A DNA stretch of 7,100 bases. Origin: Actinomycetales bacterium (GTDB lineage: Bacteria > Actinomycetota > Actinomycetes > Mycobacteriales > Mycobacteriaceae). Below the pieces are notes generated by a model. That model was not told the origin of the DNA and searched no databases. It saw nothing but the letters and a program-made list of their open reading frames with translations. Positions 444 through 5,763 of the stretch are shown piece by piece; within the stretch, counting starts at the first letter, position 1, and every line of letters begins with the position of its first letter. Location of the stretch: contig DUOR01000097.1 of the NCBI GenBank assembly GCA_012838715.1, positions 1-7,100 of the forward strand, given 5' to 3'. A program made the translations under genes and the position numbers.

Positions 444-2339
444 GTGCAATCCCTCGCCCGCATCCTCGCCTCGACGAAGGTGCTGTGGCCCTTTTACGTG
501 GGCATCATCGTGTGTTCCCTGGGCACCGCCGCGGCCGCGCTGGTCAGCCCGTTCCTCATCCGCGACGCCACCGACGCCATCGTCGGCGCGATCGGCGACG
601 GAGGCGACGACGTCATCAACCGCACCGTGACAACGGTGCTGTGGCTGGCCATCGGCCTGCTCATCGCGGACCTGGCGCAGACCATCGTGCACAACATCGG
701 CGGCTACCTCGGCGACGTCATGACCGCGCGGATGCGCGAAATCCTGTCGACCCGCTACTTCGCCAAACTGCTCTCGCTGCCGCAGCGCTACTTCGACGAC
801 CAGGTCACGGGCACCATCATCGCCCGGCTGGAACGCTCCATCACCAACGTGACGCAGTTCCTGCAGTCGTTCTCCAACAACTTCTTCCCCATGCTGCTCA
901 CCGTGTTCGCGGTGCTCGGCATCACCGGCTGGCATTACTGGCCGCTGGCCGTGCTGTTGGCGGCGGTGTTCCCCACGTACATGTGGCTGACGACGCTGAC
1001 CTCGAAGCGCTGGCAGAAGATCGAGGGCAAGAAGAACGGCGAGATCGACCTCGCCGGCGGCCGTTTCGCGGAGGTCGTCGGCCAGGTGAAGGTCGTCCGT
1101 TCCTTCACCGCCGAGGTCCGCGAGGTCGACGGCTTCTCCCGCCACTACGAACGCACCGTGGGCCTGACCCGCGAGCAGTCGTCCTGGTGGCACCGGATGG
1201 ACGCGCTGCGCGGCGGCATCCTCAACGTCATCTTCTTCGGCATTTACCTGCTGCTGTTCCTGCGCACCCTGCGCGGCGACTTCTCCATCGGCACGATGGT
1301 CATGCTCATCCAGCTGGTGAACATGGCCCGCCAGCCCGCCACCATGATGAGCTTCCTCGTCGACGCCGCCCAGCGCGCCGTCGCCGGCTCCCGTGACTAC
1401 TTCGACGTCATGGCGCTGCAGGAGGAGAAGTCCGCGCCGAAGGCGCTGGTGCGGGCCGCGGCGACGGACGGCCGGGCCGCCGACGCGTCGGCACGCGGCG
1501 AGGGCCTCGACCCGGATTACGCGCCGCAGCGGCTCACCCCGCCGGAGGACGGCTCCCCCGTCATCGACCTCGACGACGTCTCCTTCGCCTACGAGAAGGG
1601 CAACCCGGTCCTCGAGGGCGTGACCTTCAACGCCGGCCGCGGCGAAAAGGTCGCGCTGGTCGGCGAATCCGGCGGCGGCAAGTCGACGCTGGTCAACCTG
1701 ATCCTCGGTTTCTACCAGCCGACCGGCGGCGTGCTGGAAGTGTGCGGCGCCGACGTCCGCGAAGTGCCCATGGGCAACCTCCGCGCCTCGGTGGGCGTGG
1801 TGTTCCAGGATGCGGCGCTGTTCTCAGGCACCATCCGCGAGAACATCGCCTACGGCCGACCCGACGCCACCGACGCCGAAATCATCGACGCCGCGCGCCG
1901 CGCCAACGCCGACGACTTCGTGCGCCGCTTCCCCAAGGGCTACGACACCACCATCGGCGAACGCGGCCTGAAACTGTCCGGCGGGCAGAAGCAGCGCATC
2001 GCCATCGCGCGCGCCATCCTCAAGGACGCACCCGTCCTGCTTCTCGACGAAGCCACCTCGGCGCTCGACACGAAGGCCGAACGCGAGGTGCAGCGTGGAC
2101 TCGAGGAGCTGATGCAGGGGCGGACGACCATCATCATCGCCCACCGGTTGTCCACGATTTCGAACGTGGACACCATCGTCACCCTGGACCGGGGCCGCGT
2201 CGACGAGGTCGGCTCCCCCGCCGAACTCGCCGTGTCCGGCGGCATTTACGCCGAACTGCTGAAGCTCACCGCGTCGGCGTCGGCCGCCGACCGGAAGCGC
2301 CTGAAGAAGTACGGGCTCGAAGTCGAGGACGAGGTTTAG
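444..2339 (+). CDS. ABC exporter half-transporter (fused membrane and ATPase domains, MsbA/ABCB type)
   Basis: The gene encodes 631 residues from GTG with AGGAGG 8 bases upstream. The N-terminal half is a type-1 exporter membrane domain with about six helices (near residues 15-37, 61-85, 147-165, 167-186, 257-276 and 283-300). The ATPase domain starts near residue 373 with A-loop Tyr383, Walker A GESGGGKST (407-415), Q-loop Gln455, signature LSGGQKQR (511-518), Walker B VLLLDE (531-536), D-loop SALD and switch His567. All catalytic residues are present, so it should be an active pump working as a homodimer, or as a heterodimer with a partner not in the window. Residues about 329-372 form a longer, Ala/Arg/Asp-rich linker between the domains. 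The substrate cannot be read from sequence. Related proteins export lipids, peptides, siderophores or drugs. The metal ATPase upstream on the same strand hints at, but does not show, a shared role. Confidence 0.95.
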   Translation: MQSLARILASTKVLWPFYVGIIVCSLGTAAAALVSPFLIRDATDAIVGAIGDGGDDVINRTVTTVLWLAIGLLIADLAQTIVHNIGGYLGDVMTARMREILSTRYFAKLLSLPQRYFDDQVTGTIIARLERSITNVTQFLQSFSNNFFPMLLTVFAVLGITGWHYWPLAVLLAAVFPTYMWLTTLTSKRWQKIEGKKNGEIDLAGGRFAEVVGQVKVVRSFTAEVREVDGFSRHYERTVGLTREQSSWWHRMDALRGGILNVIFFGIYLLLFLRTLRGDFSIGTMVMLIQLVNMARQPATMMSFLVDAAQRAVAGSRDYFDVMALQEEKSAPKALVRAAATDGRAADASARGEGLDPDYAPQRLTPPEDGSPVIDLDDVSFAYEKGNPVLEGVTFNAGRGEKVALVGESGGGKSTLVNLILGFYQPTGGVLEVCGADVREVPMGNLRASVGVVFQDAALFSGTIRENIAYGRPDATDAEIIDAARRANADDFVRRFPKGYDTTIGERGLKLSGGQKQRIAIARAILKDAPVLLLDEATSALDTKAEREVQRGLEELMQGRTTIIIAHRLSTISNVDTIVTLDRGRVDEVGSPAELAVSGGIYAELLKLTASASAADRKRLKKYGLEVEDEV

Positions 2340-2349
2340 GGGCGCAGTG

Positions 2350-2400
2350 GCCTCGGTACCCGGAGTCCCGGGGGATGCCTCGGGCTCAAAGTCCCGGGGC
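2350..2400 (+). repeat. Imperfect tandem repeat between convergent genes
   Basis: Two copies of a roughly 25-base unit lie head to tail. Each starts with GCCTCGG (2350-2356 and 2377-2383) and ends with AGTCCCGGGG (2364-2373 and 2390-2399), with differing 7- and 6-base middles. The second copy abuts the stop codon of the 66-residue gene on the other strand (2401-2403). Confidence 0.65.
2367..2399 (+). terminator. Candidate terminator of the ABC exporter, with two alternative stems
   Basis: CCTCGGG (2378-2384) can pair with CCCGGGG on its left (2367-2373, 4-base loop GATG) or with the identical CCCGGGG on its right (2393-2399, 8-base loop). Each stem is 7 bp with one G-U pair. It starts 28 bases after the ABC stop codon and lies between convergent genes, where a terminator is expected. 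No T-run follows. The G-U pair becomes an A-C mismatch on the other strand, so it should work better for the + transcript. Confidence 0.5.
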
Positions 2401-2601
2401 CTAGGACGCCAGGGTCACGAGCTCACTGTCGAGGATGCCCGGGCGGGCCGGCCCGTCGTAAACGAAGAGCGAGACGTAGTCCTCGAGGGTGAAGGAATCC
2501 TCGGCGCGGGCGGCGTCGTAGGTGCTGGAGTCGTAAGCGGTCGCGCCGAAAGTGGTCGCGTCGTGGTTGGCGGCGGTGCGGAAAGCGAGTGCTGCGGTCA
2601 T
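2401..2601 (-). CDS. Small acidic hypothetical protein (66 residues), no recognised family
   Basis: The start is ATG at 2601-2599 with GGAG 10 bases upstream (2615-2612), and the stop is TAG at 2403-2401. I do not recognise the protein. It has ten Asp/Glu against three Arg, with no Lys, no Cys and no Met after the initiator. It has no signal peptide or membrane helix, so it is probably cytosolic. Residues 14-28 form three five-residue units, DATTF, GATAY and DSSTY, each ending in an aromatic residue, followed by a more conserved-looking block FTLEDYVSLFVYDGPARPG (37-55). The frame stays open upstream to an ATG at 2793-2791, but that extension is Arg/Pro-rich, lacks an initiation site and looks like GC-rich non-coding sequence. 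The gene converges on the ABC exporter and follows a roughly 295-base leader with its own regulatory signals. Codon use is ordinary for the window. It could still be a fortuitous ORF. Confidence 0.6.
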   Translation of the reverse strand: MTAALAFRTAANHDATTFGATAYDSSTYDAARAEDSFTLEDYVSLFVYDGPARPGILDSELVTLAS

Positions 2602-2678
2602 TGCTGGGGTTCTCCGGGAAAAGTTCGGGTGCGGCGTCGGGGCTGTGACGTCCACGCGGCGACCGGAGGGCCTCGACG

Positions 2679-2704
2679 GAACCGGGTTCGGTGAACCGGG
2701 TTCG
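2679..2704. repeat. Tandem pair of GAACCGGGTTCG
   Basis: Two identical 12-base copies (2679-2690 and 2693-2704) are separated by GT. Each copy is a near-palindrome, GAACC and GGTTC around one central base. The pair lies between the candidate attenuator stems and the 66-residue gene. It could be a pair of operator half-sites or alternative RNA pairing arms. The function is unknown. Confidence 0.7.
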
Positions 2705-2705
2705 T

Positions 2706-2732
2706 GGGCCGCGGGCCCCGTCGTGCGGGGCC
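2706..2732 (-). promoter_or_regulatory. Mutually exclusive stem-loops behind the leader ORF (attenuator-like)
   Basis: Read on the - strand, GGCCCCG (2732-2726) and CGGGGCC (2720-2714) form a perfect 7-bp stem with a 5-base loop, starting 5 bases after the leader ORF stop. The 3' arm overlaps GGGCC (2718-2714), which can instead pair with GGCCC (2710-2706) around a 3-base loop. Both stems cannot form at once. A ribosome at the leader stop codon would cover the first arm. This is the geometry of translation-controlled attenuation, but neither stem has a T-run, so the effect on transcription or on downstream initiation is inference. Confidence 0.4.
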
Positions 2733-2737
2733 GGGGT

Positions 2738-2815
2738 CTAGGGTCGCGGCGCGGACTGCGGACAGCGGCACATCGACGACGACGGAACCGCACGATGCGT
2801 GCTCGCGTGGACCAT
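2738..2815 (-). CDS. Candidate 25-residue leader peptide with a Met-Cys-Arg-Cys run
   Basis: This short frame starts at ATG 2815-2813 and ends at TAG 2740-2738. It is preceded by GAAAGGAG (2828-2821), one of the best ribosome binding sites in the window, spaced 5 bases from the ATG. The peptide reads MVHASTHRAVPSSSMCRCPQ and then five more residues. Residues 15-18 are Met-Cys-Arg-Cys, three sulfur amino acids in four codons, and three serines precede them. The frame lies in the leader of the 66-residue gene, downstream of a McbR-like operator and just before two competing stems. By analogy with leader peptides that sense charged tRNA (cysteine-responsive short ORFs are known in mycobacteria), it may sense Cys/Met supply. 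It is too short to be supported by coding statistics, so the ribosome binding site and the context are the only evidence. Confidence 0.45.
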   Translation of the reverse strand: MVHASTHRAVPSSSMCRCPQSAPRP

Positions 2816-2820
2816 CGGTG

Positions 2821-2828
2821 CTCCTTTC
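2821..2828 (-). promoter_or_regulatory. Ribosome binding site for the leader ORF
   Basis: GAAAGGAG on the - strand, with 5 bases to the ATG at 2815, has near-ideal match and spacing. Its presence in front of only 25 codons is the reason this frame is called. Confidence 0.6.
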
Positions 2829-2848
2829 GTCGTGGCCGTCACCCTGCG

Positions 2849-2887
2849 CCGGGCGTTTCCCGGAGGATGCGCCGGTCTCTCCCGGCG
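2849..2887 (-). promoter_or_regulatory. Two hairpins at the 5' end of the leader RNA
   Basis: On the - strand, CGCCGG (2887-2882) and CCGGCG (2875-2870) form a 6-bp stem with loop GAGAGA. CCGGG (2863-2859) and CCCGG (2853-2849) then form a 5-bp stem with loop AAACG. Both lie between the likely transcription start (near 2896) and the leader ribosome binding site. They do not fit a riboswitch class that I can name. A resemblance of the GGAGAG segment to the glycine riboswitch fails because no matching CTCTC strand follows. Confidence 0.35.
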
Positions 2888-2892
2888 ACTAA

Positions 2893-2908
2893 TGGACAAG
2901 TTAGTCTA
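2893..2908 (-). promoter_or_regulatory. McbR-like operator overlapping a possible -10 box
   Basis: On the - strand the sequence is TAGAC, six bases, then GTCCA. The McbR consensus of C. glutamicum is TAGAC-N6-GTCTA, so 9 of 10 defined bases match. McbR is the TetR-type repressor of sulfur amino acid genes and responds to S-adenosylhomocysteine. The site overlaps TAGACT (2908-2903), a plausible -10 box for the leader and 66-residue gene, where binding would block transcription. A second symmetry, GACTAA (2887-2892) with TTAGTC (2901-2906), overlaps it and could be the real operator of another TetR or MarR protein. No + strand gene starts to the right of this site, so the - strand unit is the only local target. 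Confidence 0.5.
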
Positions 2909-2976
2909 GTTTGCGGCCGGAAGTACATACCCGCGGCGAAATGACGGAGAAAACCCAGTTCATGGCCGCGCACGCT

Positions 2977-3002
2977 CCCCCGATGCGGGGGCAATCCCCC
3001 GC
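2977..3002 (-). terminator. G/C hairpin with alternative pairing, possible second terminator
   Basis: CCCCCG (2977-2982) can pair with CGGGGG (2986-2991). Alternatively GCGGGGG (2985-2991) can pair with CCCCCGC (2996-3002) around a 4-base loop. It lies about 150 bases beyond the lipid kinase stop and before the next promoter on the same strand, so it may insulate the two units. There is no T-run directly after the stem. Confidence 0.3.
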
Positions 3003-3014
3003 TCCAACCCTCCC

Positions 3015-3042
3015 CGGAACAGCGCCGGAACAGCGCTGGAAC
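3015..3042. repeat. 11-base tandem duplication
   Basis: CGGAACAGCGC occurs twice without a gap (3015-3025 and 3026-3036), followed by the partial third copy TGGAAC. It is short and probably arose by slippage. Confidence 0.7.
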
Positions 3043-3079
3043 CGTCATCCGAACACATTCCGGACAGACCGGTTCAGCC

Positions 3080-3110
3080 GCGCATCCGCCACGGCCCCGC
3101 CCGGATGCGC
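3080..3110 (-). terminator. Candidate terminator of the oxidase-kinase operon
   Basis: GCGCATCCG (3080-3088) and CGGATGCGC (3102-3110) form a perfect 9-bp stem with a 13-base loop. It lies 45 bases past the kinase stop codon on the - strand. It is the longest perfect stem I noticed in the intergenic DNA. No T-run follows, as is common in this phylum. Confidence 0.55.
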
Positions 3111-3154
3111 ACACCCCGCCCTGCTACGCTCGCACCCCGCCCGCACCCCGCCGA

Positions 3155-5742: not shown

Positions 5743-5763
5743 CCCAAAGTGTGACACTTTTGG
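5743..5763. promoter_or_regulatory. Palindromic operator between the oxidase operon and glpD
   Basis: AAAGTGT (5746-5752) and ACACTTT (5754-5760) form a perfect inverted repeat around one base. After one mismatch, the outer CC (5743-5744) pairs with GG (5762-5763). It covers the spacer and -35 area of the oxidase promoter, so a bound protein should repress that operon, and it lies upstream of glpD. The size and symmetry suit a TetR- or GntR-type regulator. From memory, M. tuberculosis has a TetR gene (Rv2250c) at this spot. None is present here, so the regulator would be encoded elsewhere. Confidence 0.7.

Follow-up and report, generated by a model that had tools for sequence, protein, structure and literature searches.

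Why should a bacterium place a short open reading frame (ORF) with cysteine codons ahead of a lone gene whose small product contains almost no sulphur? This question is raised by positions 2401–2908 of contig DUOR01000097.1 from an Actinomycetales bacterium. The window, by which we mean the whole stretch of DNA analysed, is one whole contig of 7100 bases (C458) from a genome of 480 contigs, and every feature of the unit discussed here lies on its minus strand. The unit comprises a McbR-like operator, a leader ORF, paired RNA segments and a gene for a protein of 66 residues, which the first-pass annotation had joined into one sulphur-responsive circuit. We consider it probable that the unit is a cysteine-responsive attenuator placed beneath a McbR-type (sulphur) repressor, gating an orphan and nearly sulphur-free small protein which the cell likely makes only during cysteine shortage.

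Conservation of the unit

Conservation was taken as the test of the unit because the operator match in the window is within chance and a consensus scan gives no promoter. A profile of the small protein was searched over 242 genomes of the genus Corynebacterium, counting matches with an expectation value (E) below 1e-12, and the gene is found in 16 of them; a match in G051 (E 0.082) has been set aside as noise and is outside this count. A partial draw at the family level (301 genomes from 31 genera, the genus included) gives no homologue beyond Corynebacterium, and a partial draw at the order level (249 genomes from 68 genera, again including the genus) gives matches only within the window's own genus. 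A scan of named genomes returns seven loci, all of them in Corynebacterium, including C. lactis S064, C. xerosis NBRC 16721 and C. amycolatum SK46. The protein collection holds 27 sequences of the family, that of the window among them, and the eight whose source is named all come from Corynebacterium, including C. sphenisci, C. freneyi and C. hansenii.

In each of the 16 carriers, the TAGACT core of the operator, a short ORF led by a Shine–Dalgarno sequence (SD) with at least one Cys codon, and the small ORF stand together on the same strand. An exact pattern of the leader core matches in 18 of the 242 genomes, compared with 2 for its reversed control. Of these matches, 14 are located at the unit, and the remaining four (L073, L080, L085, and L086) were dropped because they lie inside unrelated coding sequence; the leaders of two carriers, G215 and G080, escape the exact pattern. 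The first-pass annotation had asked for loss of the leader or stems in relatives that keep the small gene: the leader is kept in all 16, and a stem different from the one drawn there, which we call P1, is kept in 15. Since the core pattern elsewhere occurs only in the four unrelated coding sequences, comparison of the sequences indicates that the operator core, the leader, the covarying stem and the small gene are one conserved unit, and this co-conservation supports the proposal of a single circuit.

The window taken by itself would be far less telling. Only one site with at most two mismatches to TAGAC-N6-GTCTA is found in it where 0.60 are expected by chance, so the operator match alone proves nothing, and the fold of the whole leader is moderately stable (z score -1.97, with 4 of 200 shuffles equally stable). 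Both figures would suit an assembly of unrelated features by chance, an explanation that is already refuted by the joint retention of core, leader and small ORF (16/16) and of P1 (15/16) and to which we give next to no probability.

Leader, stem and control of the small ORF

The leader of the window is a well-initiated ORF of 25 codons with Met-Cys-Arg-Cys, as had been annotated. Its strong SD is typical, the values for all 16 units lying between -11.7 and -13.4 kcal/mol. The SD-led frame with at least one Cys codon is kept throughout although the N-terminal lengths vary: leaders of the C. amycolatum/C. lactis kind contain PSLQMCCCCLQSVP, and the C. xerosis kind has MVHANIHRAVPSSSMCSCHSSAPRP or a similar sequence. 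Four Cys codons are present in seven leaders, three in three, two in two, and one in four. The leader starts 45–104 nucleotides (nt) past the start of the operator in all 16 units.

P1 is formed by the pairing of GTCCRYGC with a downstream GCRYGGAC in 15 of the 16 units. The 5' arm begins 5 nt past the last Cys codon, without exception, in the 15 units that have the arm, and it has one sole 8/8 partner, located 48–92 nt before the small start codon (15/16). Covariation was scored on 13 distinct rows (the 15 less the duplicates L006 and L015) against 500 shuffles. In these rows 96.5% of the P1 cells are paired, 16 cells are changed on both sides compared with 6.0 in the shuffles (0/500), and the covariation score is 0.295 compared with 0.153 (0/500), slid partners reaching at most 0.106. 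A separate double change is contributed by C. sphenisci (L009). RNAalifold also recovers the helix on two pairing-blind MAFFT alignments (8 and 6 sequences), and the mean pair probability of P1 in the free leader is 0.80–1.00 in the 15 units. Between the arms, sequence conservation is poor.

The first codons of the window's leader, GTCCACGCG (2805–2812), are perfectly complementary to the P1 3' arm (2650–2657) and may compete with P1; in five C. xerosis-type relatives this pairing has one mismatch.

P1, together with its extension P1b, is the conserved structure and was absent from the list of the first-pass annotation, whose stem as drawn is not supported. The annotation had put its stems 5 bases past the leader stop, and one perfect hairpin of 7 base pairs (bp) does stand there (2732–2726 with 2720–2714), but its sequence is not conserved. 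As a conserved element this hairpin has been rejected, the stretch being mostly gapped or different in seven aligned relatives; by eye, some relatives show a different small GC hairpin at this place. The positions of all features are given in Table 1.

Table 1. Features of the unit in the window, listed from the operator to the small-protein gene.
Feature	Position	Strand	Remark
McbR-type operator TAGAC-N6-GTCCA, TAGACTAACTTGTCCA	2893–2908	-	9/10 match; core kept 16/16
-10-like TAGACT, overlapped by operator	2908–2903	-	same place in 16/16 units
Leader SD AAAGGAG, strong	2821–2827	-	anti-SD duplex -12.1 kcal/mol
Leader ORF, 25 codons, MVHASTHRAVPSSSMCRCPQSAPRP	2738–2815 (ATG 2815, stop 2738)	-	SD-led ORF with Cys in 16/16
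Leader Cys codons	2770–2768 and 2764–2762	-	
P2 5' arm GCTGT, holds last Cys codon	2762–2766	-	pairs with 2646–2642 in minimum-energy fold
P1 5' arm GTCCGCGC	2749–2756	-	5 nt past last Cys codon; covariation; unique 8/8 partner
P1b 5' arm GCGACC, extends P1 to leader stop	2742–2747	-	RNAalifold consensus of 8; window fold
GC hairpin, 5 nt after leader stop, apical to P1	2714–2732	-	7/7 inverted repeat
P1b 3' arm GGTCGC	2659–2664	-	RNAalifold consensus of 8; window fold
P1 3' arm GCGTGGAC	2650–2657	-	48 nt before small ORF
P2 3' arm ACAGC	2642–2646	-	window fold
Small-ORF SD CGGAGA, weak	2611–2616	-	-6.6 kcal/mol
Small-protein gene, 66 residues and stop	2401–2601	-	no Cys, no internal Met

The following order of events is proposed. 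As long as sulphur amino acids abound, the promoter would be repressed by McbR or a close relative. When a transcript is made, its strongly initiated leader would be translated. With ample Cys-tRNA, the ribosome would pass and P1 would close behind it, P1 and a flanking pairing, P2, joining the Cys codons to sequence about 10–46 nt before the weakly initiated small ORF, which would be off. With scarce Cys-tRNA, stalling at the last Cys codon would leave the ribosome covering the P1 5' arm and the P2 arm, so that the structure could not form and the small protein would be made. Counted from the first base of the last Cys codon, the P1 5' arm starts at 8 nt; this is the distance that a stalled ribosome would need for blocking, and cysteine sensing is on that account the most economical interpretation. 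The direction of control is suggested by the geometry of P1 and by analogy with the mycobacterial precedent described below.

The same fixed distance bears on a riboswitch-like element, bound by a ligand or a protein, that P1 and the leader RNA could form with the Cys codons being incidental. This we regard as improbable. Such an element would explain why four of the 16 leaders have one Cys codon only, and the LEU element, which is similarly built, is argued by its authors to work without leader translation (PMC1262725). It would leave unexplained an SD-led frame kept in 16/16 units with variable N-termini and a spacing between the P1 arm and the last Cys codon that is constant in 15/15. The poor conservation between the arms also speaks against it, as does Rfam, which gives nothing at gathering score for 2300–3150 (four weak matches fall below).

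For cysteine sensing by a stalled ribosome, the controlled output is most likely translation initiation, because the window has no U-tract terminator between the leader and the small ORF and the SD of the small ORF is weak. The strength of this SD is -3.1 to -6.6 kcal/mol in 16/16 units, compared with the strong SD of the leader. No GC hairpin followed by a T tract is found between the two ORFs on the window's minus strand; the lone terminator-like site (2485–2470) sits inside the small ORF, and shuffles give 0.4. In the fold of the window, P2 flanks P1 and pairs the last Cys codon beside it. In 12 of the 16 units, a six-mer spanning the last Cys codon is exactly complementary to a stretch 10–42 nt upstream of the small start codon, the window matching at 5 of 6 bases. 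Counted by lineage this becomes 4/7 (P 0.0004 against dinucleotide shuffles), a figure weakened by the choice of the six-mer and the seven lineages by eye, with no tree, after the folds had been seen.

Our second choice for the output, though a rather unlikely one, is Rho-dependent attenuation, in which leader translation and P1 would set Rho termination between the leader stop and the small ORF. The absence of a U-tract terminator from this stretch of the window suits Rho, folding gives no consistent change in exposure of the start site, and Rho has been offered, though called weak by the authors, for the mycobacterial cys leaders (PMC1262725). The weak small-ORF SD in 16/16 units and the P2 partners 10–42 nt before the start in 12/16 point instead to initiation.

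Several further observations weigh against a cysteine-sensing leader that acts on initiation. The leaders of L009, L010, L014, and L015 have a single Cys codon, and three of them have Arg codons at the positions of the Cys codons of others. Only three of 11 non-independent pairs show significantly (p<0.05) less synonymous change in the leader than in the small ORF. Of five measures of the covariation of P1, two are weak: four pairs are changed on both sides compared with 2.3 in the shuffles (reached in 23/500), and there are 8 pair types compared with 8.3 (427/500). The shuffles also ignore relatedness, and the largest contribution to the covariation is the split between the two main clades. 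The covariation term of RNAalifold for the whole consensus is slightly unfavourable on each of the two alignments (+1.06 and +1.93). The unit L010 lacks P1 and has a spacer of just 37 nt. Upon stalling, the predicted exposure of the small-ORF start goes up in 12 of the 16 units and down in four, including the window. Finally, the proposal that the Cys codons directly hide the start region in every clade was rejected, since this pairing is not generally above shuffles or swaps in 12 representatives.

In one clade, RNAalifold suggests that the Cys stretch pairs directly with the start region, and single-sequence duplex tests of the Cys stretch, also tried, were mostly within shuffles. L010 (1455–1632 in G080) is a reduced unit with the leader MVRNRKLPSLSMCLV, no P1 and the 37-nt spacer mentioned above. 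Its Cys-codon stretch is complementary to the region of the small ORF's GTG start (p 0.04–0.06 against shuffles).

The operator and the small protein

The McbR box of C. glutamicum is TAGAC-N6-GTCTA (PMC2723105), and TAGACTAACTTGTCCA (2908–2893, minus strand) agrees with it at 9 of 10 bases. The first-pass annotation had called this a McbR-like operator at a candidate promoter. The 9/10 match stands, as does the TAGACT core in 16/16 units. A single match is within chance in the window, and the sigma-70 consensus scan of 2300–3000 finds no promoter-like site on either strand. Transcription would start near 2896. Across the 16 units, agreement with the box is 9/10 in five (including the window), 8/10 in ten and 7/10 in one.

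The link of the operator to sulphur is supported, by sequence comparison, through an 18-mer shared with metQ of other species, metQ being listed together with metN under McbR in C. glutamicum (PMC2807442). This 18-mer, TAGACTAANTTGTNCATT, occurs once each in 16 of the 242 genomes and not at all in the reversed control. Nine of its copies are at the unit, and seven, by eye, are directly before a MetQ gene in genomes that have no small-protein match. When two of the seven MetQ-type proteins were scanned with NCBIfam, MetQ models were best but below their cut-offs, and one scanned with Pfam matched NlpA lipoprotein above cut-off.

In L029, L030, L031, L032, L036, L039, and L041 (position 1501 in each), the 18-mer lies about 80–105 bases before the likely start of the MetQ-type protein.

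Perfect boxes TAGAC-N6-GTCTA were searched in 12 of the 16 carriers and appear to back the sulphur link more weakly. Of the 19 whose surroundings were read, ten stand before a gene recognisably concerned with sulphur or redox (metB, metH, a gene of the sulphite/nitrite-reductase family, one resembling a ferredoxin reductase or a PatB-family C-S lyase gene), and nine have no clear sulphur gene by eye. The PatB-family C-S lyase gene with a perfect box is also present in the window's own genome. Five of the proteins encoded downstream of boxes were scanned, of which metB passes its NCBIfam cut-off and the others match below theirs.

Perfect boxes also stand before OsmC-like and PdxS-like genes, by eye, in L057, L064, L063, and L068 (position 1501), the L057 protein giving one weak NCBIfam match only. 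If real, these boxes would extend the sulphur regulon.

The assignment of the operator to McbR has its own difficulties. The scan for a sigma-70 promoter was negative as described, and no unit of the 16 has a perfect box. In 14/16 the right half reads GTTCA or GTCCA, so another protein could recognise the site. Perfect boxes occur in 11 of the 12 carriers at 56 in total compared with 38 in the reversed control, which is mildly above background, and the window's own genome has 5 compared with 6.

An operator that gave the sulphur response alone, with the leader being plain upstream translation that senses nothing, would fit the seven genomes in which the 18-mer precedes metQ, where by eye no such leader is present. 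We hold this to be quite improbable, as a covarying P1 stands at a fixed distance from the Cys codon in 15/16 units.

That the 66-residue protein has no Cys and no internal Met was confirmed, and the same holds for the small proteins of all 16 units. The 25 aligned family members together contain a single Cys or Met among the 1368 residues that follow the initial Met; P0003 and P0019, which look over-extended and each carry a Cys in the extra stretch, were excluded from both the alignment and this count. The family is therefore nearly, not absolutely, sulphur-free. In the window protein taken singly the absence is unremarkable. For eight representatives, with the homologous core counted once and the frequencies of Met and Cys taken from four neighbouring genes, zero Cys and Met would be expected with P 0.007, an estimate made without P0003, P0019 and the Cys-bearing P0011, the last of which is within the 25-member count.

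The family has the consensus core FTLxDYVxLFxYDGPxxPxILxSELV. Thirteen members were compared with Pfam and none matched a family, the sole NCBIfam match was far below cut-off, and a profile search of the PDB gave no match. The predicted structure has a predicted local distance difference test score (pLDDT) of 65.7 and a predicted template modelling score (pTM) of 0.28. The downstream neighbour in the window is an ATP-binding cassette (ABC) transporter gene (444–2339, plus strand). It is convergent with the small gene, which thus stands on its own; by eye, most relatives also have a convergent neighbour. The protein would function under sulphur starvation, its short conserved core probably binding a partner, and its near absence of Cys and Met would allow it to be made without spending sulphur.

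Elsewhere in the window, a palindrome, AAAGTGTGACACTTT, is located at 5746–5760 in a divergent intergenic stretch between a gene for a flavin adenine dinucleotide (FAD)-linked oxidase and a gene for an FAD-dependent oxidoreductase (glpD-like), and is a possible regulator site.

Relation to known systems and meaning

In the cysteine-responsive attenuators of mycobacteria, short ORFs precede cysteine-metabolism operons, and RNA pairing links downstream expression to translation of the leader. Canestrari et al. reportedly described such attenuators with poly-Cys short ORFs in 2020, leaderless by the title. The Corynebacterium unit shares with them a short ORF with Cys codons before a gene and the theme of sulphur. 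It differs in that its leader has a strong SD, where theirs are leaderless, and in that some leaders have one Cys only. The target is also different, being a single orphan small-protein gene with no Pfam or NCBIfam assignment. With an SD before its leader and a target other than a cysteine gene, the unit is not classed with the leaderless mycobacterial set.

Cysteine genes of M. smegmatis are under translation attenuation (PMC13236596), and candidate Cys leader peptides have been listed in Mycobacterium, P. acnes, and B. longum (PMC1262725). The latter resemble the present leader in having Cys codons near the leader stop and no terminator hairpin. For them no conserved terminator-like hairpin is reported, whereas the Corynebacterium unit has a covarying stem. 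Three Corynebacterium genomes were analysed in that work, and the available portion names no Cys leader there. The same paper describes the LEU element before leuA in Actinobacteria, in which a run of Leu codons pairs with the SD box. The regulatory codons of our unit may likewise pair towards the SD region, as a base stem that surrounds inner helices. The LEU element concerns leucine, a biosynthetic gene and a pseudoknot; in our unit P1 is the stem with good support, P2 being a weaker base pairing.

The operator resembles the box of the C. glutamicum McbR regulon and shares its 18-mer with metQ of other species. Unlike that regulon, the unit has an imperfect right half-site in 16/16, and no leader-peptide layer or small protein of this kind is described in the available text of PMC2580772 and PMC2807442. 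Leader peptides are known in C. glutamicum before trpE, leuA, ilvB, and aroF, and no Cys leader is named in the accessible part of that account (PMC3890552). A description of the unit was not found in the open-licence literature searched.

Known before were Cys leaders ahead of cysteine-metabolism genes in mycobacteria and a few other actinobacteria. In the present unit a Cys leader with a covarying stem 5 nt from the last Cys codon guards solely an uncharacterised protein of about 30–71 residues. If the proposed attenuator is true, the small protein would be a candidate sulphur-starvation effector in C. amycolatum, C. xerosis, C. lactis and relatives, and the leader would be a defined RNA for testing attenuation by Cys-tRNA, in a genus that includes a safe laboratory species. 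A bolder and doubtful extension is that the unit is a two-lock switch for sulphur starvation, requiring both release of the repressor and sensing of Cys-tRNA, which is found in some Corynebacterium only and guards a purpose-built sulphur-free effector that re-routes or protects sulphur metabolism. If this were true, the cell would have evolved a protein free of sulphur cost for the moment in which there is no sulphur.

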